The notes under the pieces are model-generated. The model ran no database searches. It was given only the letters and a program-made list of their open reading frames with translations, and had not been told where the DNA came from. Shown piece by piece: positions 1 through 55,349 of a stretch of 64,000 nt of DNA. This DNA is from Pelobacter sp. (lineage in GTDB: Bacteria; Desulfobacterota; Desulfuromonadia; Geobacterales; Pseudopelobacteraceae). Position 1 is the first letter of the stretch, and every line of letters starts with the position of its first letter. The stretch is taken from the NCBI GenBank assembly GCA_030824515.1, contig JAVBXN010000024.1:1-64000 (forward strand). Reading direction: 5' to 3'. Made by a program: the position numbers and the translations under genes.

Positions 1-636
1 CTTGTCCGGATCGAGCCCGAATTCGCCGGCACAGGTGGCCCGCCGGCGCCGTTCCCCGAACACCGGCATGATCGGGATGCCGGTCACCCGGATGCGGTCC
101 GCCGGAATGCCCCGCTCGGCCATGCGCCAGGCCACCTCGTCATTGGCGGCGAAATAGCCGCTGATGTGGGGGTGGATCCAGAGCGCATGCACGTCGAAGT
201 CGGTCACCTGCACCCAGACCGGCTTCGAGAATGTCCCCCTGCCTATCTTGCGCGACAGCAGCTGGGCAGGCAGGAAGTGGGTACAGATCACCTGATCCGG
301 GTTGATTTCATCCAGCACCTGCTTGAGCTTGCGGGTGTTGAGGCGTTCGATGGCGCTGCGCAGCCGAGAGAGCGCCGAATCGACCTTTTCATGGTCGGTC
401 CTGTCGTAGAGATAGCCCCAGAAGGCCGGATGGCGTTCGACCACCTTGATATAGGTGTCGGCGTAGACGGTCTTGAACAGCCTGGGCACCAGTTCCATCA
501 GATCGATGTGCACCGCCTCCACACCGGGATAATATTTCTCGGCCGCGGCCTGCAGCGCCTGGGCGGAGCGCACATGCCCGGCCCCGGCCGAGACGCTGAG
601 GATGGCGATTTTACGGGGTTTGCCGGTTTCTACCAT
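1..636 (-). CDS. MGDG-synthase-like glycosyltransferase, C-terminal part cut off by the window edge
   Basis: The frame is open from an ATG at 636 to base 1, giving 212 residues with no stop. It begins MVETGKPRKIAILSVSAGAG and continues with HVRSAQAL, the N-terminal signature of the MGDG synthase / processive diacylglycerol glycosyltransferase family (a GT28-type GT-B fold). A CTHFLPAQLL stretch near residue 118 and a VQVTDFDVHALW stretch near 143 also fit that family. Known members add hexoses to diacylglycerol at the membrane; the UDP-sugar-binding half would lie left of the window. It is the last visible gene of the minus-strand operon that starts at 10380 and follows a small membrane-protein gene by 34 bases. 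The lipid substrate is inference; family assignment is fairly secure. Confidence 0.75.
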   Translation of the reverse strand, partial: MVETGKPRKIAILSVSAGAGHVRSAQALQAAAEKYYPGVEAVHIDLMELVPRLFKTVYADTYIKVVERHPAFWGYLYDRTDHEKVDSALSRLRSAIERLNTRKLKQVLDEINPDQVICTHFLPAQLLSRKIGRGTFSKPVWVQVTDFDVHALWIHPHISGYFAANDEVAWRMAERGIPADRIRVTGIPIMPVFGERRRRATCAGEFGLDPDK

Positions 637-670
637 TTTGGGATTCCTCGTGATGGATTTGTGAAACAAT

Positions 671-1078
671 CTATGGGGCGGCCAGAAGATACCAGCTGCC
701 CATGATCAGTATGCCAAGCGCAATCATGCCCGCATTCAGGAGGTTGCGCCCGGAGGGAATGCTGGCATGCTGTTGCAGCCCCCGGGCAAAAGCGATGCGA
801 TAGTAGATCCTGAAGGAGAGCAGCAGGATCAGGCCGAGCACGACGCCTCTGTAACGGAACGGATCGCCGGCGGCATACAATCCGGCAATACCGGCAAAAG
901 CGGCCAGCGCCCCCCAGGGCTTCAGTATCAGGAACAGGTCCTCGCGCTCAGGCGGTTCGCAGCTGTAGAACCACTTGTAAAACTTCATGGCAAAGTCGGG
1001 AAAAAACATCGAGACCACGCCGGTAAAGAGGTGGTAGGCGGACAGGACCAGCAGATACGCCCGGCACAGGCTGTTCAT
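671..1078 (-). CDS. small integral membrane protein, paralogue of the next upstream gene
   Basis: 135 residues with about four hydrophobic segments (roughly residues 6-26, 54-70, 77-95 and 113-132). I recognise no named family. The middle and C-terminal segments (RIYYRIAFARGLQQHASIPS) resemble the upstream neighbour (LFQRVCFADKVMQVMQIPPS), so the two probably arose by tandem duplication. The ATG at 1078 has an AAGGGG ribosome-binding site 8 bases upstream. It lies in the operon between the paralogue and the glycosyltransferase, which suggests a membrane role linked to that enzyme, but this is inference only. Confidence 0.6.
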   Translation of the reverse strand: MNSLCRAYLLVLSAYHLFTGVVSMFFPDFAMKFYKWFYSCEPPEREDLFLILKPWGALAAFAGIAGLYAAGDPFRYRGVVLGLILLLSFRIYYRIAFARGLQQHASIPSGRNLLNAGMIALGILIMGSWYLLAAP

Positions 1079-1118
1079 GATGTCAGCCCCTTTTCTCCGC
1101 AGAGGACGCCTTCGGGGT

Positions 1119-1556
1119 TCATTGCCCGGCCCCGTGCATGTCCTTGTACAATTGCCACCTGAAGACGCCCATCAGGGCCGCCAGTACGGCCACGATCAGT
1201 GCCGCGCCCCAATACCGGGACGGCGGGATCTGCATTACCTGCATCACCTTGTCGGCGAAACAGACCCGCTGGAACAGGCGCAGGGAGAACAGGACCAGTC
1301 CGACGGTGACAATGGCCCGGTTTTTGACCGGATTCCAGGCTGCTATGCCCATCATCAGGCCGAAAGCCGCCAGATAGCAGGCAAGGATTTCACCCGCAAT
1401 GCCCAGTTCGGGAGAACCGGAGACAGAGACTCCTGCCAGGTTTTTGAGCAGGCGGAGCGTCAGCTCTCCGGAGAAGAACAGCAAGGCACCCGATAACAGG
1501 TGATACACCGCAATAAACCATAACAGCATCCTCCAACCGGTGTACGACTTTGACAT
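1119..1556 (-). CDS. small integral membrane protein, tandem paralogue
   Basis: 145 residues from the ATG at 1556. A GTG two codons earlier is possible, but AGGAGG is spaced 7 bases from the ATG. There are about four membrane segments (residues 9-29, 51-70, 79-97 and 112-132). The N-terminal WFIAVYHLLSGALLFFSGEL echoes LLVLSAYHLFTGVVSMFFPD of the downstream gene, and both share the Phe-Ala ... Ile-Pro-(S/P)-(S/G)-R loop before the last helix. Function unknown. The gene sits 40 bases before its paralogue and 31 bases after the radical SAM gene, so co-transcription is likely. Confidence 0.6.
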   Translation of the reverse strand: MSKSYTGWRMLLWFIAVYHLLSGALLFFSGELTLRLLKNLAGVSVSGSPELGIAGEILACYLAAFGLMMGIAAWNPVKNRAIVTVGLVLFSLRLFQRVCFADKVMQVMQIPPSRYWGAALIVAVLAALMGVFRWQLYKDMHGAGQ

Positions 1557-1587
1557 ATCCACCCCTCCTGTCAGTTAATTATGAATA

Positions 1588-2880
1588 TCAGGCACCGTTG
1601 CACGGCTGTTTTCCGTGAAAGGAGCACAAAGATTCGCAGCCGCTTGCAGTAAGCGCCGCGCTGCCGCAGCGTTGCACCCTTGACAGGTCCTGGAAGTCCC
1701 GCTGCAGAAACGCGCCGGTGCCGATAAACACTATCCTGGTTCCGCTGCCCCCGGACAGCCTTCTGATGACATGACGCGCCAGCAGCCCCCACCCCCGGCG
1801 ACCCATGCATTTCAGCGCCAGGGCCAGCAGATACCTGCGCCTTGATCCGGGACGCGGGCACTCCGGGCTCCTGGAGGCCAGTTCGATGAACCGGTCCATA
1901 TCGGCATATCCGGAAGCGGTCTCGACCTTCCTGTCCGTTATCACGGCCACGGTATTAGCGGCGCAGTCGGGATGCACATGGATGTGTAAAGGCCGGAAAA
2001 CCGGGATCGGCCAGAAATCAGCATTTGTCAGCCCGCTTATCGCCTGCCCCTCCACCAGCGACGAGACGATCTCCTCTCGGGTAATGTGGCGATCCCCGTC
2101 AATTGCCAGACGACCGACGTGGGCGGCACCCTGGAAGACGATCGTACCCGGCGGAGCGGGCCAGTCAAACACCCGGCGGCAATAGGAGGAAAGCTCTGCA
2201 AGATTGTGTGAAGTCACCGTGCAGACCAGCCCCAGGTTCAGTCCGGCTGCGGCAACAAGTCGCGCCGCCTCTATTTTTTCCGGGATGAAATCGTTTCCGC
2301 GGATAGCGCGATGGGTCTGAAGATCAAAGCTGTCCAGCTGCAGGCTGACCTTTTCGAGTCCGGCCTTTTTCAGCCTGGCGGGCAAGGCCGGATCAGCAGC
2401 CAGCCGCAGCCCGTTTGTCGCCATCCAGACGCACAGCCCGGAATGGCTGAACAGCCGGATCAGTTCAGCCAGGAGCGGGTGCATGGTCGGCTCCCCACCC
2501 ACCAGGACCACGATCCAGGCCCCCTTATCCAGTGCGGTTTTGGCAATTTCACGCGCCTCCTCCAGGGAGAGGTAGTCGTTATCCTCGCTGGTGCCGGAGT
2601 CGGAATAACAGACCGGGCAGCGGCAGTTGCAGTCATTGGTGACCGGCACATAGTGGAAGAAAAACGGGCGATCCTCCGGCGCACGGTAATCGGGCCTAAA
2701 CCCGGCCTGACTCCGGAATTGCAGGAAGAGGTCGGAGTGAGCGGAGAGTGTAGTCCGCCACGGCCCGACCGGACAGTCCACCTCGCCGATGATTCTCCCC
2801 TCTTCCAGCAACTGGCGCGCCGGATGCGCACATCTGCACGCAGGACAGAAGACCTCGGTCTGGCTGATGACCTCATGCAT
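1588..2880 (-). CDS. radical SAM enzyme with N-terminal cysteine (zinc-ribbon-like) domain
   Basis: 430 residues. An N-terminal CPAC (residues 12-15) and a Cys at 36 form a metal-binding knuckle. The radical SAM cluster motif CX3CX2C follows at C84, C88 and C91 (TNDCNCRCPVC), then a VLVGGEPTMHP stretch typical of the GGE SAM-binding motif. The layout is like MoaA/PqqE-type and tetraether-synthase-like radical SAM proteins, but it lacks the extra CPxxCGxC block of the two proteins at 28-32 kb. A Cys-rich C terminus may bind a further cluster. It overlaps the preceding radical SAM gene by 8 bases, implying translational coupling. The reaction cannot be read from sequence. Confidence 0.75.
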   Translation of the reverse strand: MHEVISQTEVFCPACRCAHPARQLLEEGRIIGEVDCPVGPWRTTLSAHSDLFLQFRSQAGFRPDYRAPEDRPFFFHYVPVTNDCNCRCPVCYSDSGTSEDNDYLSLEEAREIAKTALDKGAWIVVLVGGEPTMHPLLAELIRLFSHSGLCVWMATNGLRLAADPALPARLKKAGLEKVSLQLDSFDLQTHRAIRGNDFIPEKIEAARLVAAAGLNLGLVCTVTSHNLAELSSYCRRVFDWPAPPGTIVFQGAAHVGRLAIDGDRHITREEIVSSLVEGQAISGLTNADFWPIPVFRPLHIHVHPDCAANTVAVITDRKVETASGYADMDRFIELASRSPECPRPGSRRRYLLALALKCMGRRGWGLLARHVIRRLSGGSGTRIVFIGTGAFLQRDFQDLSRVQRCGSAALTASGCESLCSFHGKQPCNGA

Positions 2881-4018
2881 TGCAGGACTCCGCGCCAGGC
2901 GGCTCCAGATGGTCGGCCAGGCAGACCGGGATGACCCGGCCGTTGCGTGCGGTGGAGTTGGGGCAGAAGTCGCAGCAGTTGACCGTGCCGTCCGGCATGA
3001 CTACCGGCGCGTTCTCGAACACCAGCCGTTTGGAGTGCAGCCTTGCTCCCGGCCGCAGCGACCTGAGCAGCGCACCGGCATGCTCGGGCAGGCAACCGTT
3101 GGCAATGCCGTTCACCACCAGCTGTATCGCGTTCATCAGCCAGCGGTTTTTGCAGTAGTAGAGATAGCGCCCCTTCAGCAGACGGCTCAGTCGGATCAGG
3201 AACAGTTCCGCGGCACCGGAGGCAACGTTGATGATCCGGTTATCGCTCCTGCCATGCACCACCGGCACGAAGTAACTGATGCAGGGCAGCTCCGATTCGT
3301 CACTGCAGCGTGGCGGTATGCAGGCGTAGGGCTTGAGCCGGAAATGCTTTTCGAAAAACGCGATCACATCGCTGTTGCGCGACGGAGCGGATCGATAGAT
3401 ATGGGGGCGGACCGTGCCCGATCCGATGCCGGAATTGGCCACGATGTCGTCAATCTCCACCGCATGGGTGGCAAAGAGGAAATTGATCTCCGGAGTGGCC
3501 AGCATGCACTCGAACAGCTCTTTCAGGTTTTCGAAATGTTCGCGGTAGATGGTGACGCAGAGGCCGGCATCGATGCCGTGGGCCGCGACCCTGCGGGCGA
3601 TCTCCCGCCTGAGGCTATTGATGTCCGCAACCGTCGGTCCGGCTGGCAGGTCTGGTCGCTGCTGACCCTCATCCACATGGATCATGACAATATCCAGCCC
3701 GGCCAGTTTCAGGCGTGACAACAGCTGATCGGTCAGCAGCAGTCCGTTGGTTACCAGCGAGACGCTGTGCCCGCGACCGTGGATGGCGGCCACGATCTCC
3801 ACCAGATCCGGATGCAGGGTCGGCTCACCGCCGGCCACCGAAACGGTCTGCACCTGCTGATGCCGTTCAATGGTATCCAGGTCCGCCATGATCGCGGCAA
3901 CGGACTTGCTCCCCCCGGTCTTCTCGCGGTAGCAGGCCCGGCAGGAAAGGTTGCACTGCTGGTTGATCTCCAGCACGCAGTGCGGGACACTCTTTTTATC
4001 CCAGGGCAGTTCGATCAT
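2873..4018 (-). CDS. radical SAM enzyme with C-terminal (SPASM-like) cysteines
   Basis: 381 residues from the ATG at 4018. The frame is open further upstream, but this ATG has a perfect AAGGAG 5 bases away and lies 16 bases after the GH3 stop. The CX3CX2C motif is at C22, C26 and C29 (QQCNLSCRAC), followed by SVAGGEPTLHP. A C-terminal CCDFCPN motif could hold an auxiliary iron-sulfur cluster as in SPASM-type enzymes. It is one of four radical SAM enzymes in this operon and shares an 8-base overlap with the next. Substrate unknown; a lipid or peptide-like substrate handled with the GH3 enzyme is possible. Confidence 0.75.
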   Translation of the reverse strand: MIELPWDKKSVPHCVLEINQQCNLSCRACYREKTGGSKSVAAIMADLDTIERHQQVQTVSVAGGEPTLHPDLVEIVAAIHGRGHSVSLVTNGLLLTDQLLSRLKLAGLDIVMIHVDEGQQRPDLPAGPTVADINSLRREIARRVAAHGIDAGLCVTIYREHFENLKELFECMLATPEINFLFATHAVEIDDIVANSGIGSGTVRPHIYRSAPSRNSDVIAFFEKHFRLKPYACIPPRCSDESELPCISYFVPVVHGRSDNRIINVASGAAELFLIRLSRLLKGRYLYYCKNRWLMNAIQLVVNGIANGCLPEHAGALLRSLRPGARLHSKRLVFENAPVVMPDGTVNCCDFCPNSTARNGRVIPVCLADHLEPPGAESCNA

Positions 4019-4034
4019 TGATGCTCCTTGTTTA

Positions 4035-5726
4035 TCACAACTGTTGCCGGCATGCCGGCGCCAGCATCCTCCCCCGGAAGGCATCTGCCCAGCCGCAGCC
4101 ACGATGCAGCGCCACGGGTTTCACATCCCCCAGGCGCTGTCCGCGGCTGCAACAGCCCTGCAGGTAACCTTCCCGGCCATTGCGCTCAACCCGGAAAACC
4201 CTGACCGGGGCGAGCTGCCCCAGATCCCTGCAATAACCGTACTGGAAATTCCCCTTGAGCTGCGCGTCGATCTCAGCCGCGATCCGCAGCAGTTGACTGT
4301 CGCCGGCATTCCCGGCTTCGACGAAATAGACATACCCCGGCGCGGGCAGCTTCTCGCAGGCCAGCATGGCAAAGTCCGGGGCCAGGCCATGGCGGTCGGC
4401 AGCCCGCCGCAGGACCCCGGCGACATGGGACTCATCGAGCTTTTCTCCGAAGTGGTCGGCAACATGATCCGCCTTGCCCACGAAACGGAGCAGCGGCACC
4501 TTGTCGTGGAACCCCGACACCCGCACCAGGTCGTGGAGCCGGTAGCGGTAGAGGCCGCCACCGGTGGTGACGACCAGCGAATAGATCCCGCCGGTCTCCA
4601 GCTGATGAAGCAGGCGGGCTTCGCTGCCCTGTTGCGGCATGAACTCGAGAAAATGCGAACGGAGGGCGGGCAGGCAGCCCTCCAGTCCCGCCACCGGCAG
4701 TGTGAAGAACCCCTCTGTTGCCAGCAGCCCCTTCCCCTGGATCACCGCCCGGGGGAAGAGCTGCCGTATTCCGTCGGCAAGTTCCCCGGCCGCGCCGTCG
4801 CTCCAGCAGCTGATCAGGCGCAGTCCGGGCCAGAGCGCCAGATGCCGGTCCGCCGGAGATTTTTCGCGTATGAAGACGGAACGGATCTCTTTTGCCCGGA
4901 CATGGTCGGGGCGCAACCGCCGTCCCAGTTCTTTGGCCAGCTCCGGATCAAGCGGTTCGGGAGGGGACAGGCCGCCCCGGGCGATATCGTCCGCCAGCTG
5001 CGGCCAGCAATCCTCCAGCCGTCTGCAGAGGATCGTCAGGAAACTGGGGTTCCAGACCGAGATCAGCGTCAACTCCCGGCAGCGCAGCAGGTACAGCAGC
5101 GTGACATACCAGAAATTCTCCATCTGGCCGATGCGCTTGACCTGGTCCGGCACGGCCTGCAGCGAATTCACCAGCAGACGGCCGAAGCCGCCGACATAAT
5201 CGCTGTCGTCATCGAATCCGATCGGGATGCCGCCTGCAGTTGACTGCCGCCGCGTTACCGGTGAAACCGACCAGTAACTTTGCCCGTCCAGCAGTTCCGG
5301 GTAACTGCGGTACAGGGCACTGATCCAGGGGGCAATCCCCCGCTGGAACTGCCGTTTCAGTTCACGGGTACAGGGAATCAGCTTGCTTCCGCCGCCGGAA
5401 CCTCCGGTGGGCTCCAGCAGCAGGACCGGTTCCGCGGTGAGCAGGTTCTGTTCACCGGCACAGATCCGTTCGATATACGGCTCAAAATCCCGATAATCCG
5501 CCTGCGGCACCGCTTCCTGATACTCGCGCGCCGACCGTATCCCGGCAAAACCGTGCCTGCGGCCGAATTCAGTATCCCGGTTGCGGCGGAGCATCTCCAG
5601 AAGCAGCATTTCCTGGGTGGCTTCCATGTCTTGCAGGCTCTTCCAATAGGCGTTCGCCTCCCGTTGCAGGGAGAGTTTCCAGAGCCGGTTGGCGGATTTG
5701 CGGAGCACGCGCCTCACAGCCCGCAT
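4035..5726 (-). CDS. GH3-family acyl-adenylating / amide synthetase-like protein
   Basis: 563 residues, the usual length for bacterial GH3 proteins. GH3 enzymes adenylate a carboxylate and transfer it to an amine or other acceptor. Visible family hallmarks are the Ser/Gly-rich P-loop-like LLEPTGGSGGGSKLIPCT (about residues 103-120), NFWYVTLLYLLRCREL (about 204-219) with ISVWNPSFLTIL, and the ATEGFFTLP motif near 340 where adenylating enzymes bind nucleotide. It overlaps the upstream gene by 13 bases and precedes the radical SAM gene by 16. In context it probably activates an acyl group made or modified by the neighbouring enzymes. Family confident, substrate unknown. Confidence 0.8.
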   Translation of the reverse strand: MRAVRRVLRKSANRLWKLSLQREANAYWKSLQDMEATQEMLLLEMLRRNRDTEFGRRHGFAGIRSAREYQEAVPQADYRDFEPYIERICAGEQNLLTAEPVLLLEPTGGSGGGSKLIPCTRELKRQFQRGIAPWISALYRSYPELLDGQSYWSVSPVTRRQSTAGGIPIGFDDDSDYVGGFGRLLVNSLQAVPDQVKRIGQMENFWYVTLLYLLRCRELTLISVWNPSFLTILCRRLEDCWPQLADDIARGGLSPPEPLDPELAKELGRRLRPDHVRAKEIRSVFIREKSPADRHLALWPGLRLISCWSDGAAGELADGIRQLFPRAVIQGKGLLATEGFFTLPVAGLEGCLPALRSHFLEFMPQQGSEARLLHQLETGGIYSLVVTTGGGLYRYRLHDLVRVSGFHDKVPLLRFVGKADHVADHFGEKLDESHVAGVLRRAADRHGLAPDFAMLACEKLPAPGYVYFVEAGNAGDSQLLRIAAEIDAQLKGNFQYGYCRDLGQLAPVRVFRVERNGREGYLQGCCSRGQRLGDVKPVALHRGCGWADAFRGRMLAPACRQQL

Positions 5727-6520
5727 CCCCCGTCACCGAGCATCCGTTTTCCGGCCGGGGTCACATTGGCCGGAGAGATCTCGGTGATGCAGACCAGCTC
5801 ATCTCCCCGCACGTGTCCGGGATTGACCTGCTGGAAGAAGGCGATATGGGGGTCCCGCAACCTCTGCCCGGTTATGTCGGCAATCCCCTGCTTCAGCGCC
5901 GACGATTCAATGAAGCGGATCACGCCAGCGGCGGCATCATATTCCAGCGGATACCTGGACGCCCCCAGCGTATCCATCAGCTGCCTGATTCCGGCCGGTG
6001 TGCCACGCTTGTAGCAGGGATAGAACTCACTGAAAAACACCGGCAGGAAGCGGTAGGTTTTATAACCGGAACAGATCAGGAACCAGTAGACCTTGCGGTC
6101 GGACATCGCTGACGCCAGACTGAAAACGTGCCTGCTCCAGAGTCGGGGAAGCACGGTTTGCCCCCAGTAATCGCGTTGAATGATGGTATCACCGGAGAAG
6201 AAAGCGGTTACCGGCCTGCCCTCCATCTGCGTATCCAGCTGCATCAGCGTTGAAAAGCCGCGGATGATGCCGTCCAACTCTCCCCGCAGCAGGATGACCC
6301 ACTCCTTCTCGGCCAGGTCCGCCTCGAAACGCTGAAGCGTGGTATTGGTAAAATTTTCGGCCAGCAGCCGGAACATTTGCGTCCGTTCCCGGAGCGAGAG
6401 TGACGTGACCTGTTGAACCGTACCGGTCAAAAGGTCCGTTGCCCTGTCACCATCAAGGCCGGCAGTTTCTTCAGATGGTGGCGATTTCCACATGGCTGAC
6501 GCGAGGGTCGAGATTGTCAT
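5714..6520 (-). CDS. uncharacterised protein, possibly acyltransferase-like
   Basis: The frame is open up to 6793, but its upstream part lies inside the GNAT gene and reads as Arg/Pro/Ser-rich noise. I chose the ATG at 6520 because AAGGAGGAG lies 10 bases before it, giving 268 residues and a 50-base overlap with the preceding gene. The protein has a helical N terminus (SLSLRERTQMFRLLAENF), then a GIIRGFSTLMQLDTQMEGRP beta-rich core and aromatic stretches (FFSGDTIIQRDYWGQ, VYWFLICSGYKTYRFLPVFF). The core faintly suggests a GNAT-like fold, but I do not recognise the family. It sits between GNAT and GH3 genes and overlaps both. Confidence 0.6.
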   Translation of the reverse strand: MTISTLASAMWKSPPSEETAGLDGDRATDLLTGTVQQVTSLSLRERTQMFRLLAENFTNTTLQRFEADLAEKEWVILLRGELDGIIRGFSTLMQLDTQMEGRPVTAFFSGDTIIQRDYWGQTVLPRLWSRHVFSLASAMSDRKVYWFLICSGYKTYRFLPVFFSEFYPCYKRGTPAGIRQLMDTLGASRYPLEYDAAAGVIRFIESSALKQGIADITGQRLRDPHIAFFQQVNPGHVRGDELVCITEISPANVTPAGKRMLGDGGCGL

Positions 6521-7583
6521 GGAATTGGCTCTCCTCCTTCCAGCAGACTGTGTAGAGGCGACTGATGTAGGCAATATGCGGATAGCGTCCGGCCACGGCC
6601 AGCAGCGGATCACGCTCCGTGAGCCCGACCAGGACGCGGCCGTATCCCCGTTGCGCGGCCAGTGTGCAGAGCGCACACAACAACTGCTCGAAAACATCGG
6701 GGTCGTTGCCGGCAATACAGGTGAAGGCGGCATAGGCCAGGGAAAGCGCTTCTCCGGGAGCCGGCAGAGGCCTGTCGCCACGACAGCGGGCATAGCTGTT
6801 GTACAGCGGCCTTCCCCAACGCAGGAAACCGGAATATCCGCGTACGATCGGCTGCTTGTAGGCCGACTGGTCCCACAGCCCCATCACACCGCAGAGCCGT
6901 CCGCCCCGCGTTGCCAGCAGCAAATCCCCGAGGCGCAGGCCACGGGTGCTGGCGGAACCGGGACGGAAATCCTCCTCCCTGAGAACGGGGAAAAACTGTT
7001 TCTCCGCGCCATGGTGATCAAAAAAATGGATCAGTTCCGGCAGGTCGTGCTCAGCGGCGGGGCGGATTTCCGTACCACCCGGTTTCCGCGCCTTGTATGG
7101 TCTGGCCGGAAGCGCCAGGGTATGCAGGCGGTCTATCTCCCGATAGAGCGGAAGCGACCTGGAGGCCCTTCGCACCAGCACACCTTCCGCCACCCGGTTG
7201 CCCTCGATCAGGGTAGTGATATAACCTTGCGCGCACCGGTCCCTATCCAGCTCCCGGAAATAGCTGAAACCGGAGGAAACCAGCCCGCGCCCCTGGAAGC
7301 GGCGATCGACCCGCAGCTGTCCCAGGTATCCCGCGTCGGCCGCTCTGCCGTTGATGAACATGGCGCGTACGGCCCGGCACCCCAGGCCGGCCAGCCGTCC
7401 GCCGGCACGATCACGCGCGATCACGGTCTGGTGGAAGTCTCCCATGACCCCGCAACCGTCAAAATATGAGGGTGAACGCTCATAGGAGATGGTGATCCCG
7501 CCCGGCACCGGGTTGTCGCGTAGCATCTTGCGGATATCGTCATCATCCGCGGCAGTGGCGATACTGAAGTCGAAATTGCTCAT
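6471..7583 (-). CDS. GNAT-family N-acetyltransferase-like protein
   Basis: 370 residues. The acetyl-CoA-binding motif A appears as GYLGQLRVDRRFQGRGLVSS (about residues 85-104), with the R-x-x-G-x-G/A pyrophosphate loop RRFQGRG. A second degenerate GNAT-like half follows after residue 170, so this may be a tandem-GNAT protein. It would transfer an acyl group from CoA to an amine. The start overlaps the preceding radical SAM stop by 4 bases (ATGA), indicating coupling. The substrate is not evident; in this operon it could decorate the product that GH3 activates. Confidence 0.7.
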   Translation of the reverse strand: MSNFDFSIATAADDDDIRKMLRDNPVPGGITISYERSPSYFDGCGVMGDFHQTVIARDRAGGRLAGLGCRAVRAMFINGRAADAGYLGQLRVDRRFQGRGLVSSGFSYFRELDRDRCAQGYITTLIEGNRVAEGVLVRRASRSLPLYREIDRLHTLALPARPYKARKPGGTEIRPAAEHDLPELIHFFDHHGAEKQFFPVLREEDFRPGSASTRGLRLGDLLLATRGGRLCGVMGLWDQSAYKQPIVRGYSGFLRWGRPLYNSYARCRGDRPLPAPGEALSLAYAAFTCIAGNDPDVFEQLLCALCTLAAQRGYGRVLVGLTERDPLLAVAGRYPHIAYISRLYTVCWKEESQFHDNLDPRVSHVEIATI

Positions 7584-9001
7584 GCCTGTGCCACCCGTTC
7601 AAATCCGCTTTTGTGTTGTGGCAGCTCCGGAGCAGTATCTGGCGGAGCTTCCCCGACCCTGAGCAGCGGCCCCGCAAAGCTTTCATCACCCAGCGGATAG
7701 CGTTTCCGCTGCAGCACCTCCCGGCGCATCAGGATGTTGATCACAAAGAAGTTGAACCACATGAAAGGGGTGCTGCTGTTGACAGCGAAATCCAGGCTGC
7801 GCCGCAGTATCGAAGCAAATCCGAAAAAACGGCGTCGGGCATCGACACAGCACTGCTCCAGTTCCCCTGGCAGGATGCTCTGCGGGGTAAACGGCAGCAT
7901 GCCGTAGCGGTAATCTTCGTCGAGCCACCAGCGCCGATGCAGCAGGCGCCCCTCTTCCTGCAACCGGCTGTAGAGTGGCGTGCCGGGAAAGGGAGTAATG
8001 TGGTTGAAGGCGGTCAGGTAAAAGCGCTGTTGTTCGGAAAACTCGACCGCCTGGCGCACCGTATCGGCGGTATCATGATCATAGCCCGCCACGAAGGTGG
8101 CATAGATGCGGATGCCGTATTTCCGCAGGTTGGCAAGCGCCGCCTCATAATATCCCCGGCCGCTGGCAAAGCCTTTGCCCATCTGCTCCAGGGTTTGGGG
8201 ATGCAGGCTTTCCAGGCCGATCAGCAGCCCCTGGCAGCCGCTGCGGGAGAGGAGCTCCAGCAGTTCCGGATCAAAGGCCACGGCAATGCCGGCCTGCCCG
8301 ATCCATCTGATTTTGAGCGGAATCAGCGCCCGCATCAGCTCCCGCGCCCGTTCGGGATCGGCCACGATGTTGTCGTCCACGAAGAACAGGATCCTGCTGC
8401 TTAGCTGCCCGATCTCCTTCACGATCTCTGCGACGGGTCTTCCGGTATAGTTCCTCTGGAAGACGCTCTGTACGGAACAGAATTCGCACCCCAGCCGGCA
8501 GCCGCGGCCGGTTTCCATCAGGGTGACCGGCAGGTAGTTCTTGCCGGCGAAGATACTCCTGTCCGGCATGCACCCGGCCAGCGCCGGACCTGCTTCGTTG
8601 CGGTAGCTGCGTTTGAGCCGACCGGCACGAAAATCCGCTATCAAACGGGGCCAGGTTTCTTCCGCCTCGCCGATCACGATTGCATCGGCATACCCGGCCA
8701 CTTCATCCGGCATCAGCGTGGCGTGGAAACCGCCCATCACCACCGGCACCCCTCGTTTGCGGTATTCGGTGGCGATCTGGTAAGACCGCCGGGCAGTATA
8801 GGTTTCCACCGTAATCGCCACCAGGTCGGTCGGCTCATCAAAGGGAACCGGTTCCATCCGGTCGTCGTGGAAGCTGATCTGCACATCATCGGGAGTCAGG
8901 GCCGCCAGTACCGCCGGCGCCAGCGGTTCCATCTGCCAGGTGCGGATGTACGCTTCACCGCTGCGACGCCCCATGCAGGGTTGAATGATCGTTACTTTCA
9001 C
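7580..9001 (-). CDS. B12-binding-type radical SAM enzyme
   Basis: 473 residues from a GTG at 9001, which overlaps the upstream stop as GTGA and has GGAG 5 bases before it. The N-terminal 150 residues have the cobalamin-binding-like Rossmann pattern (DLVAITVETYTARR, VPVVMGGFHATLMPDE, ADAIVIGEAE), although a DxHxxG cobalt-ligand motif is not obvious. The radical SAM CX3CX2C is at C168, C172 and C175 (GCRLGCEFC). The C-terminal part resembles BchE/HpnJ-like enzymes. Such enzymes methylate or rearrange unactivated carbons of lipids and pigments. It forms a pair with the similar protein encoded just upstream. Confidence 0.78.
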   Translation of the reverse strand: MKVTIIQPCMGRRSGEAYIRTWQMEPLAPAVLAALTPDDVQISFHDDRMEPVPFDEPTDLVAITVETYTARRSYQIATEYRKRGVPVVMGGFHATLMPDEVAGYADAIVIGEAEETWPRLIADFRAGRLKRSYRNEAGPALAGCMPDRSIFAGKNYLPVTLMETGRGCRLGCEFCSVQSVFQRNYTGRPVAEIVKEIGQLSSRILFFVDDNIVADPERARELMRALIPLKIRWIGQAGIAVAFDPELLELLSRSGCQGLLIGLESLHPQTLEQMGKGFASGRGYYEAALANLRKYGIRIYATFVAGYDHDTADTVRQAVEFSEQQRFYLTAFNHITPFPGTPLYSRLQEEGRLLHRRWWLDEDYRYGMLPFTPQSILPGELEQCCVDARRRFFGFASILRRSLDFAVNSSTPFMWFNFFVINILMRREVLQRKRYPLGDESFAGPLLRVGEAPPDTAPELPQHKSGFERVAQA

Positions 9002-10380
9002 GGCGTCTCCGTCAGCTTGAAGCTGCTCCGGTACCACCCCTCATCCGGGGCGGTTCCGGGAGCGAGCATGGAGTAGGGAGCGGAAAAGCGCTGCTCGTTG
9101 TACAAACGGCGGACAAACATCTGATAGGTGAGATTGCCGATGAAATTGATCGCCGTGTTGGTGGACAGGCCGCGCATCCTGCGGATCACGTTAGGCAGCT
9201 TGAAGGTCTCGCGATAGGCCCGCTTGAAGCCGCTGTACAGCTCCTCCGGGGTCATCAGTGCGGGCTGGATCACCACATGCATGGTGTCGTAATCGTCCCA
9301 GTTGTAGCTCAGGATCCGGTCCTCGCCCTGCAGCCGCCGGAACAGCTCCGTTCCCGGATAGGGGGTGTAGAGAGAATAGCGGGGAATGTCGATTTTCAAC
9401 TCGTTGACCCGCTCGACGGTATTCTGGAAGACCTCGGCTGTGTCATGGTCAAAGCCGAACACGAAGCACCCCTGGACGCTGATATTGATGGCATGCATGG
9501 CCCGGATGACATCCTCGTAGTTCACCGGCTTGTTGAACCCTTTCCTGATGCCTTTCAGGGTTGCCTGGCTGTCCGATTCGAACCCGAACAGCAGGTAGCC
9601 GCAACCGCTGGCCTTCATCAGTGCAAGCAGTTCGGGATCGTTGACGATATCGACGGTTGCCAGTCCTCCCCACTTCTTGCCGAGCGGGATCATCGCCGTA
9701 AACAGCTCCTTGGCGTACTCCGGGTCTTCGGCAATGCTGACATCGTTGAAGGCAATGTACCGCCCCTTTGTGGCACGGATATCGCGGATGACATCGTCAA
9801 CGGGACGCCTGAGATATTTCGGCCAAACAGCAGGCACGGTGCAGAAATCGCAGATTTTCTTGCAACCCCGGGTGGCCTGGATCGAATCCGGAACCATGTA
9901 TCCGGAGCGGCGGTGCAGGTCCCGCCGGGGGGCAGGAACGCCCAGCAGGTCATCCACATCATCCTCTTCATAGATTTTCTGCATCCGTCCCGCCCGGAAA
10001 TCTTCGAACAGCCGGGGCCAGGCTTTTTCCGCCCGACCGATGACGATGGCGTCAGCGTGCCTGATCGCTTCACCCGGAAGGATCGTGACATGCACGCCTC
10101 CCAGGACAACCGGTATGTTTCTGCCCCGGTAATGATCCGCAATGGCATAGGCGCTGGCGGCACAGCCGGTGATAACACTGATTGCCACCAGATTGGCATC
10201 GTAATCAAGCGGCACCGGCTCCACGCTGCCGTCGATCAGCCTGATATCCAGATCGGGATATTCGGGAGTCAACGCCGCCAGGGTGCAGATGGAGAGCGGC
10301 ATCTCCCTCATGGAGCGCACAAAGGGTCCGATCTTCAGCGTGTGCATATGGGCGTCCGGCATGATCAGCAATAGTTTCAA
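8998..10380 (-). CDS. B12-binding-type radical SAM enzyme, first gene of the operon
   Basis: 460 residues. The N-terminal Rossmann-like domain (NLVAISVITG, IPVVLGGVHVTILPGEA, ADAIVIGRAEKAWPRL) aligns with that of the next gene, so the two are paralogues. The CX3CX2C motif is at C173, C177 and C180 (GCKKICDFC), followed by a TIM-barrel pattern (GYLLFGFES, VFGFDHDTAEVF, YTPYPGTELF). No DxHxxG motif is visible. It is the promoter-proximal gene of the ten-gene minus-strand run, with a 183-base non-coding stretch upstream. The family is clear but the substrate is not. Confidence 0.8.
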   Translation of the reverse strand: MKLLLIMPDAHMHTLKIGPFVRSMREMPLSICTLAALTPEYPDLDIRLIDGSVEPVPLDYDANLVAISVITGCAASAYAIADHYRGRNIPVVLGGVHVTILPGEAIRHADAIVIGRAEKAWPRLFEDFRAGRMQKIYEEDDVDDLLGVPAPRRDLHRRSGYMVPDSIQATRGCKKICDFCTVPAVWPKYLRRPVDDVIRDIRATKGRYIAFNDVSIAEDPEYAKELFTAMIPLGKKWGGLATVDIVNDPELLALMKASGCGYLLFGFESDSQATLKGIRKGFNKPVNYEDVIRAMHAINISVQGCFVFGFDHDTAEVFQNTVERVNELKIDIPRYSLYTPYPGTELFRRLQGEDRILSYNWDDYDTMHVVIQPALMTPEELYSGFKRAYRETFKLPNVIRRMRGLSTNTAINFIGNLTYQMFVRRLYNEQRFSAPYSMLAPGTAPDEGWYRSSFKLTETP

Positions 10381-10563: not shown

Positions 10564-12054
10564 CTAAAGGAACGGCTCCAGCGGCAGCGTCTTCCACATT
10601 TTCATCTTGCGGCGCTTTTCCGGCGGCGCGAAGCGGTCGGGGTTGTCGGCAGCGCTCCAGCTGTTTTCCGGCGCCATGTCGCGGATGATGTTGCGTTCGA
10701 CCTGCTGAGCCAGGTCGGTGTTGCGGATCAGCACCCCCACCTCGGTGTTCAGGTTGGCCGAACGCGGATCGAAGTTGAAGGTGCCGACAAAGAGCGTTTC
10801 TCCGTCGATCACCATGCTCTTGGCGTGGATCGCGAAAACCGGCGCCTGCTTTTCCAGCTTGGGATAGCGTTCGATCAGCTCTTTCTTGATGGCCGGATCA
10901 GGTTTGAACTCGAACACCTTGACTCCGCTCTTCAGGATCGCGCTGCGCTGCTTGTGATAACCGCTGAAGGCCTGCAGGTTGTCGGTCGAGGCCAGGGAGT
11001 TGGTGGCGATGCGCACCTCCACCCCGCGCCTGACCAGGTCGCGGAACAGCTCCAGCCCTCCCTTTGGCATCACCAGGTAGGGGGACTGGATGGTGACGCT
11101 TTTTTTGGCCTTTTTCAGCTCGGCCACCAGGTCGGCCGTGGTCCTGCCGCCGCCGTCGAAGCGGTAGCGGGCGCTGTTCTTGCCAGGCAGATCGCACAGA
11201 AAACGCACCTCGTCCCAGACGATCCCCTGCGCCAGGCGTTCGAATTTCGCGGGCAGGTTCTCCAGCGCCTGCCGCACCTCCGGCGCGAAGTTCTCCTCTT
11301 TGGCCGCATAGGCATGCAGGCCGGCGTACACGGTTCCGGCACGTTCCGGCGTCATGCCATGCATCTGTTTAGCCAGCAGCTTTTCCACCGGCACCGCCTG
11401 CTTGCTGTCCCAGAAACGCTGGAAACTGGCCTGCATTTCGGTCACCACCGGTCCCAGTACCAGCATGTCGCGGTCGCGGAAATTGTACTCGTGGTTGTAA
11501 TCGAAGTATTCGTCGGCCATGTTGCGGCCGCCGGTAATCCCGGCCCGGCCGTCGAACAGCGCGGTCTTGTCGTGCATGCGCTGGTTGACGGTTCGCAGGC
11601 CGGTGGCCACGTTACCGATCTTCTTCAGCCTCGAGGTGCCCACGTTCAGGCGGGGGTTGTAGATGCGGATATCGATGTTGGGATGCAGCGCCAGGGCCAG
11701 CATCGAATCCGGCGGGGCGTCGATCAGCAGGTCATCCACCAGCACGCGCACCTTCACCCCCCGGTCGGCGGCCCTCAAAAGCGCCTCGCTGGCCAGGATA
11801 CCGATGTTATCCGAGCTCCAGATGAAGTACTGCACATCGATGCTGGCGGTGGCATGGTCGGTCAGCCAGGCCCGCGCGCGCAACGCCTCCTCCCCCTTTT
11901 CCAGCACATAAGCGCCGGATTTACCCGGATGGGCGGCGATCAGCGGCGCGACAACCCGGGAAAGCGGGGCCGGAGTCGCGGCAAAGGAGGTCCCCACCAG
12001 GGTAAGCAGGAACAGGAAAAAAATGAATACACGGAGACAGAATTGTGATGGCAA
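10564..12054 (-). CDS. secreted or membrane phospholipase D-family protein (cardiolipin synthase-like)
   Basis: 496 residues with an N-terminal hydrophobic signal (residues 8-25, ending TSFAATP). Two HKD catalytic motifs are present: H161-x-K163-x4-D168 (HDKTALFDGRAGITGGRN) and H410-x-K412-x4-D417 (HAKSMVIDGETLFVGTFNFD). This is the layout of PLD-superfamily phosphatidyltransferases such as cardiolipin synthase C-type proteins, which act at the inner membrane or periplasm. The start is a TTG with GGAGGG 9 bases upstream. It is co-directional with the lipid-type operon but separated by a gap, so it may be independent. Confidence 0.85.
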   Translation of the reverse strand: MPSQFCLRVFIFFLFLLTLVGTSFAATPAPLSRVVAPLIAAHPGKSGAYVLEKGEEALRARAWLTDHATASIDVQYFIWSSDNIGILASEALLRAADRGVKVRVLVDDLLIDAPPDSMLALALHPNIDIRIYNPRLNVGTSRLKKIGNVATGLRTVNQRMHDKTALFDGRAGITGGRNMADEYFDYNHEYNFRDRDMLVLGPVVTEMQASFQRFWDSKQAVPVEKLLAKQMHGMTPERAGTVYAGLHAYAAKEENFAPEVRQALENLPAKFERLAQGIVWDEVRFLCDLPGKNSARYRFDGGGRTTADLVAELKKAKKSVTIQSPYLVMPKGGLELFRDLVRRGVEVRIATNSLASTDNLQAFSGYHKQRSAILKSGVKVFEFKPDPAIKKELIERYPKLEKQAPVFAIHAKSMVIDGETLFVGTFNFDPRSANLNTEVGVLIRNTDLAQQVERNIIRDMAPENSWSAADNPDRFAPPEKRRKMKMWKTLPLEPFL

Positions 12055-55231: not shown

Positions 55232-55349
55232 ACATAGATAGCGATAATACTAAACCATCCGCGAGGATGGGACGGAAAGCCCAAGGGTCTCCCCGAGACA
55301 GCCGGGTCGCCGAACTATCAGACAATGATGGCAGCGATCCGGTTTTTTT
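55232..55349 (+). promoter_or_regulatory. GEMM-Ib (3',3'-cGAMP) riboswitch with transcription terminator
   Basis: Aptamer (55232-55319): P1 GATAG/CTATC, then the AATACTAAACC core, CCATCCGCGAGGATGG hairpin, GGACGGAAAGCC, a GGGTCTC...GAGACAG helix and GCCGGGTCGCCGAA. AATACTAAACC, with A where c-di-GMP riboswitches have G20, is the hallmark of the cGAMP-sensing Geobacter class. The platform: CCGGGTCGC (55302-55310) can alternatively pair with GCGATCCGG (55334-55342), which is followed by T7 (terminator). Because the terminator uses aptamer bases, ligand binding should prevent termination (ON switch). It precedes the secreted Ig-repeat gene. Confidence 0.85.

Follow-up and report, generated by a model that had tools for sequence, protein, structure and literature searches.

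Gene content of the locus

The window analysed here, a stretch of 64,000 nucleotides (nt) from a Pelobacter sp. genome (GenBank assembly GCA_030824515.1, contig JAVBXN010000024.1, positions 1 to 64,000), carries at its left edge a minus-strand operon that contains a conserved cassette of five genes, encoding two radical SAM enzymes, two proteins of the GNAT fold and a GH3-family enzyme. A first-pass annotation of the same DNA had described a ten-gene operon with four radical SAM enzymes, GH3, a GNAT and an MGDG-type glycosyltransferase, and a check of the open reading frames (ORFs) found all ten to be present. From the operon start, the order is RS1, RS2, GNAT, orphan, GH3, RS3, RS4, TM1, TM2 and the N-terminal part of the glycosyltransferase, whose gene is cut at the left edge of the window, which is also the contig end. 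Pfam and NCBIfam confirmed the domains of two B12-binding radical SAM enzymes, two further radical SAM enzymes, GH3 and a truncated MGDG_synth. The start of the orphan gene was corrected from the 5' end of its ORF to the ATG at 6520, which is preceded by a Shine-Dalgarno sequence (AAGGAGGAG) within the GNAT gene, and that of RS3 to the ATG at 4018. With these corrected starts, neighboring genes either share 4-50 nt or leave gaps of 16-40 nt. The features are, with lengths in amino acids (aa):

10564..12054, minus strand: phospholipase-D/cardiolipin-synthase-like gene flanking the cassette, resident partner of the glycosyltransferase (Pfam PLDc_2; adjoins the cassette in loci L021 and L023)
8998..10380, minus strand: RS1, B12-binding radical SAM enzyme, 460 aa, first of the conserved core (both Pfam domains, Radical_SAM and B12-binding, over cut-off; CxxxCxxC motif; its homologue leads the order in 16 other loci)
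7580..9037, minus strand: RS2, second B12-binding radical SAM enzyme, 485 aa (Pfam over cut-off; identity 62% in L016 and 73% in L021)
6471..7583, minus strand: tandem GNAT with N-myristoyltransferase-like fold, 370 aa, predicted long-chain N-acyltransferase (AlphaFold2 model, fold match to N-myristoyltransferases, position of the C-terminus)
5714..6520, minus strand: orphan, single GNAT-fold protein of about 268 aa, most widespread marker of the system (AlphaFold2 model, fold matches, 402 relatives)
4035..5726, minus strand: GH3-family acyl-acid amido synthetase, 563 aa (Pfam GH3, GH3_M and GH3_C over cut-off; motifs conserved in 26/26)
2873..4018, minus strand: RS3, radical SAM enzyme, lineage-specific addition (Pfam Radical_SAM; 76% identity and adjoining GH3 in L021)
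1588..2880, minus strand: RS4, radical SAM enzyme (its closest NCBIfam models, far under cut-off, are TrsS with 111 bits and tetraether synthase Tes with 81; 59% identity in L021)
1119..1562, minus strand: TM1, small membrane protein (68% identity at the same position in L021; no Pfam family over cut-off)
671..1078, minus strand: TM2, small membrane protein and TM1 paralogue (27% identity to TM1; no copy found in L021)
1..669, minus strand: N-terminal part of the MGDG-type glycosyltransferase, likely start 636, a neighbor outside the cassette (Pfam MGDG_synth)

A five-gene core conserved across phyla

A scan of genome contigs with the orphan as query yielded 402 relatives, of which 80 were kept for analysis. 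The five genes RS1, RS2, GNAT, orphan and GH3 (window positions 4035-10380) recur together in 25 loci besides the window, and in 16 of these they stand in exactly this order, tightly packed and on one strand. The 16 loci belong to Thermodesulfobacteriota, Myxococcota (as classified there), Deinococcota, Acidobacteriota, Planctomycetota, Riflebacteria, Verrucomicrobiota, Pseudomonadota and, in the case of one bin, nominally Bacillota; in Chloroflexota, the same genes are present with insertions. The core is thus found across about ten phyla, a count that is approximate because contigs of metagenome-assembled genomes (MAGs) may be misbinned, as in the case of L098, which is labelled Erysipelotrichia and nests in Riflebacteria. 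Among non-cyanobacterial loci with long enough flanks, GH3 was present near the orphan in 22 of 22, the GNAT in 21, RS2 in 19 and RS1 in 18, these counts being conditional on the orphan, the query for most of the loci. The pairwise distances of the five proteins in the 25 loci and the window are correlated (Mantel r 0.56-0.90), and none of 2000 permutations reached values as high. The five genes are a conserved, co-inherited unit. The scattering of homologues in unrelated contexts that was to refute a common pathway was not seen, and retention of the order across many phyla therefore argues for a real pathway. The functional unit that the first-pass annotation had proposed is consequently real, with other borders: the core extends from RS1 to GH3 and the glycosyltransferase lies outside it.

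The first-pass annotation had proposed to look for the same gene order in other Geobacterales. The cassette turned out not to be a Geobacterales feature: it spans phyla, and a match to its GH3 at E <= 1e-40 was found in only one of 76 genomes of the host family, that of the host itself. This restriction indicates that the cassette is probably horizontally mobile. The tree of the orphan mixes phyla, which by itself is no proof of transfer. One copy, L014, is situated on a Citrobacter portucalensis plasmid (NZ_CP134684.1, 11301-23405) of the IncF type that is predicted to be mobilizable. Its order is orphan-GH3-RS1-RS2-GNAT, accompanied by further B12 radical SAM genes, PAP2, a SnoaL-family protein and a desaturase. 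In Acinetobacter baumannii (L013, 8536-15900), genes for HlyD-like and MFS pump proteins stand in a row with those of the orphan, GH3, an outer-membrane efflux protein and the tandem GNAT, with no radical SAM enzymes among them. We infer that this locus is the same as that of the AmfAB pump, whose description concerned the EmrAB-type pump and did not mention GH3 (PMC10812440). A search of 5.4 million open papers, a collection outside which most subscription journals lie, found no literature on the Acinetobacter genes beyond the pump and no description of the five-gene cluster.

Enzymes of the cassette

The GH3 protein scored 186.8, 63.1 and 29.5 bits for the Pfam domains GH3, GH3_M and GH3_C against a curated cut-off of 23.6, and it can be aligned by sequence with plant amido synthetases of known structure. 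The P-loop, ATEG, YRYR..D and GEK regions are conserved in all 26 sequences compared (the window and 25 cluster GH3s), with occasional single-residue variants. In ornithine lipid formation, N-acyl ornithine is made by a bacterial GH3 enzyme, OlsH (PMC12493201). The OlsH/OlsI pathway of Singulisphaera acidiphila resembles the cassette in placing a GH3-family enzyme, for which ATP-dependent amide formation is expected in both cases, in a bacterial lipid gene cluster. However, no domain of the alpha/beta-hydrolase OlsI was detected by Pfam among the operon proteins, and radical SAM enzymes are not mentioned in the OlsH paper (PMC12493201). Identity of the GH3 protein with OlsH was rejected, as it reached 60.4 bits with NCBIfam NF052613 against a cut-off of 620, short by a factor of ten.

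AlphaFold2 models of the orphan and the GNAT were built from the window and selected loci, with plasmid records left out. Both genes named “orphan” and “GNAT” in the first-pass annotation are present; these labels missed that the orphan itself adopts a GNAT fold and that the GNAT is a tandem, myristoyltransferase-like protein. The model of the latter (predicted local distance difference test, pLDDT, 93.8) matched N-myristoyltransferase (NMT) 4cax with a Z-score of 23.4 and a root-mean-square deviation of 3.9 Å over 304 residues (model range 1-370), followed by a tandem GNAT of Mycobacterium abscessus (Z 22.6). Human NMT1 uses its C-terminal carboxylate as the catalytic base and is almost inactive once three residues are removed (PMC7048800). 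The C-terminus of the cassette protein falls at the same column of a global alignment in 32 of 32 relatives, and 27 of them share the terminal motif [EDL]-[ILVA]-[AG]-x-[ILVMFY]. Eukaryotic NMTs thus share with the tandem GNAT a full-length tandem GNAT fold and a fixed C-terminus, whereas no sequence similarity was detected and the cassette protein is located in a bacterial biosynthetic cluster. None of 28 tandem GNAT members matched the Pfam NMT families, and only generic GNAT families recurred. As a sequence link was sought by profile searches of PDB and Pfam and not found, the tie is one of resemblance in fold and C-terminus and not of membership in the NMT family.

The orphan was modelled as a single GNAT fold (pLDDT 90.8). 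Its matches to SpNatD (Z 12.0), LasI (11.5) and FeeM (10.3) are too close together to choose between them. The orphan matches the GNAT fold of acyl-homoserine-lactone (AHL) synthases and FeeM at Z 10-11.5 and might belong to their subgroup, but generic GNATs reach 12.0. LasI-type AHL synthases and the N-acyl amino acid synthase FeeM differ from the orphan in that many other GNATs score equally and that the orphan occurs with GH3 nearby, and no sequence similarity between the orphan and either of them was found.

The motif CxxxCxxC is readable in all four radical SAM proteins of the window and in 80 of 81 cluster homologues. The best NCBIfam models were HpnJ (93.6 bits) and BchE (92.2) for RS1 and PhpK (86.6) for RS2, against cut-offs of 481-600. 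HpnJ, BchE and PhpK share with RS1 and RS2 the B12-binding and radical SAM domains and a broad neighborhood, yet with scores of 72-94 bits against these cut-offs RS1 and RS2 form subfamilies of their own, and an assignment as HpnJ or BchE was ruled out. A sub-threshold match of RS2 to ApyD was also recorded. For RS4, the nearest models are Tes (cut-off 450) and TrsS (cut-off 490), which it matches with 81 and 111 bits and over partial length only; Tes, at 81.2 bits, was rejected. TM1 and TM2 are true paralogues (27% identity over 123 aa, E 1e-10), TM2 probably being a local duplication. The host genome has another two RS1/RS2-like B12 radical SAM genes side by side (G000:C51:29835-32290 and L018), next to a lipid-A-type acyltransferase, with ketosynthase-like and FabG-like genes nearby, as judged by eye from N-terminal sequence.

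A cyanobacterial form of the system

In cyanobacteria, the orphan, often together with GH3, has Rieske and di-iron-like oxygenases as its partners in place of radical SAM enzymes. The Planktothrix cluster, for example, comprises the orphan, three Rieske proteins, a weakly ferritin-like, a weakly AurF-like and an Mpo1-like protein, a fatty acid hydroxylase, a hexapeptide acyltransferase and GH3, and these families recur in many cyanobacterial loci (e.g., L065 and L085). No description of this widespread Rieske/orphan/GH3 cluster was found in the open literature. In the tree, the orphans of cyanobacteria fall into a single supported group (99/95), next to Verrucomicrobiota and a bin of Pseudomonadota. 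The loci of these neighbors have the radical SAM core, in part together with Rieske and SnoaL-like genes. This suggests, without proving it, that oxygen-dependent tailoring was gained and the radical enzymes were lost in cyanobacteria. A simple swap of radical SAM for Rieske enzymes was rejected as too simple, because several loci of Chloroflexota, Verrucomicrobiota, Acidobacteriota and Planctomycetota carry both.

A proposed pathway for an amide-linked lipid-like metabolite

On balance, and with moderate confidence, we favor the reading that the mobile cassette specifies an amide-linked, probably multiply acylated lipid-like metabolite, with an aminolipid or N-acyl amine as the predicted product. 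The GH3 enzyme points to carboxyl activation and amide formation, the two GNAT-fold proteins to acyl transfer to amines, the neighboring desaturase, hydroxylase, PAP2 and phospholipase-D genes to acyl lipids, and the pair of B12 radical SAM enzymes to skeletal modification; together, these four elements favor such a product. A fatty acid desaturase gene is present in 15 non-cyanobacterial loci and PAP2 recurs, and the cyanobacterial fatty acid hydroxylase and Mpo1-like proteins are further lipid-type partners. A parallel is offered by a different cassette at the same genomic site in G010, which also includes an acyl-adenylating ligase, a GNAT and a DUF3419 protein. The first-pass annotation had proposed radical modification of an acyl chain, its activation and its attachment to an amine or glycolipid. 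Radical chemistry, activation and the amine fit the enzyme families, including the invariably retained GH3 motifs; the glycolipid does not.

Judged by the chemistry of the respective families, GH3 would adenylate a carboxylic acid at the expense of ATP and join it to an amine. The myristoyltransferase-like protein may take a fatty acyl group from a thioester and pass it to an amine, its conserved C-terminal carboxylate serving as putative base, and the orphan could perform a further acyl transfer in the manner of LasI- or FeeM-type GNAT-fold proteins. RS1 and RS2 would remodel the carbon skeleton by methylation, cyclisation or rearrangement in an oxygen-free reaction. RS3, RS4 and the small membrane proteins may contribute an added, Geobacterales-specific step.

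Several observations weigh against this pathway. The Acinetobacter orphan-GH3-GNAT trio is associated with an efflux pump and an outer-membrane channel, which suits an exported small molecule equally well. The likeness of the tandem GNAT to NMTs is one of fold only, the profile search of PDB and Pfam having found no sequence link. Moreover, the constancy of its C-terminus was read off a global alignment, and the strict terminal motif is not kept in five of the 32 relatives. Finally, no NCBIfam model reaches its cut-off for the B12 radical SAM pair RS1 and RS2.

The five-gene cassette is a real, widespread and apparently undescribed unit, the enzyme families themselves being known. Conservation of its gene order over about ten phyla, together with the related form in common cyanobacteria, suggests a useful metabolite, and a bacterial protein with a myristoyltransferase-like fold is encountered here in a small-molecule setting. 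A broader and more speculative view, which we regard as possible but doubtful, is that of a phylum-crossing class of bacterial lipids made by the myristoyltransferase-like protein, the second GNAT and GH3, with an oxygen-independent B12 radical SAM form, an oxygen-dependent cyanobacterial Rieske/di-iron form and, as an intermediate, Verrucomicrobia-type clusters that possess both sets. The two forms would provide a natural comparison of tailoring with and without oxygen around a common amide-forming core, and both occur in culturable strains.

Alternative explanations and the borders of the site

Instead of a membrane lipid, the product might be a secreted small molecule, either an acyl-amide signal or an antibiotic-like compound, which we consider rather unlikely. 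Such a role is suggested by the A. baumannii trio, located between the EmrAB-type pump and, interleaved, the OEP outer-membrane channel, by the fold that the orphan has in common with AHL synthases and FeeM, and by the patchy distribution of the cassette. However, transporters are absent from the recurrent neighbors of most other clusters, which contain genes for a desaturase, hydroxylase, PAP2 or phospholipase D.

Far less probable than a secreted amide is a ribosomal lipopeptide of the selidamide/nostolysamide kind, in which the GNAT would acylate a precursor peptide modified by the radical SAM enzymes. Lanthipeptides acylated by tandem GNATs are known from Nostoc (PMC13060382), and the multiple radical SAM enzymes and the ApyD match of RS2 would fit this scheme. 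Yet the locus leaves no room for a precursor peptide gene, as the largest gap within the cassette is 40 base pairs (bp) and the 183-bp gap upstream of RS1 contains no convincing small gene, although a precursor encoded at a distance is conceivable. A recurrent small gene beside the core was not found either, though ORFs shorter than 80 aa were left out of the clustering. Between the phospholipase-D gene and RS1, no structured leader RNA was detected (folding z-score 0.32, no Rfam match there).

An equally remote alternative is the view of the first-pass annotation that a modified acyl chain is joined to a glycolipid supplied by the MGDG-type glycosyltransferase. This gene is adjacent to the cassette on the same strand in the host and encodes a lipid enzyme, so that cooperation is possible. 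However, its distribution differs, with 16 of the 76 family genomes containing the glycosyltransferase against one containing the cassette GH3. The phospholipase-D-family gene, 183 bp upstream of RS1 in the window, flanks the cassette both in the nearest relative, the Geobacteraceae MAG L021, where it precedes RS1, and in Desulfuromonas L023, where it follows GH3; in neither does the glycosyltransferase adjoin the cassette. In G058 (C13), which has no cassette at this place, the phospholipase-D gene and the glycosyltransferase are direct neighbors with nothing between them, as would be expected of an empty site; in the host, the segment from RS1 to TM2 is located between the same two genes. 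The glycosyltransferase belongs to the resident neighborhood and not to the system. Since the linkage of this MGDG/diglucosyl-diacylglycerol synthase to the cassette is not conserved, a glycolipid end product was rejected as part of the conserved system, and the glycosyltransferase is possibly a chance neighbor. For the five core genes, chance adjacency is practically negligible and is refuted by the same order in 16 loci from about ten phyla.

Further observations on the locus

The first-pass annotation had proposed an extension to the left. Past the contig end, the C-terminal half of the glycosyltransferase was located at G000:C50:18-443, and the homologous region of G010 bridges the host contigs C2 and C50 across a gap of about 62 bp. 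Downstream of the glycosyltransferase, two genes for C92-type permuted papain-like amidases were identified (G000:C50:1115-2611 and 5506-7056), which adjoin it in some relatives. In G010 (C127), the site between the phospholipase-D gene and the glycosyltransferase is occupied by genes for HMG-CoA reductase, a UbiA prenyltransferase, a PPDK-like protein, DUF3419, a GNAT and an AMP-binding ligase. Across related genomes, one site is thus seen with exchangeable contents: empty in G058, with the GH3 cassette in the host and with the HMG-CoA reductase/UbiA/DUF3419/AMP-ligase cassette in G010. Elsewhere in the window, a c-di-GMP-I riboswitch is present at 55239-55314 on the plus strand (45.1 bits against a gathering score of 35).

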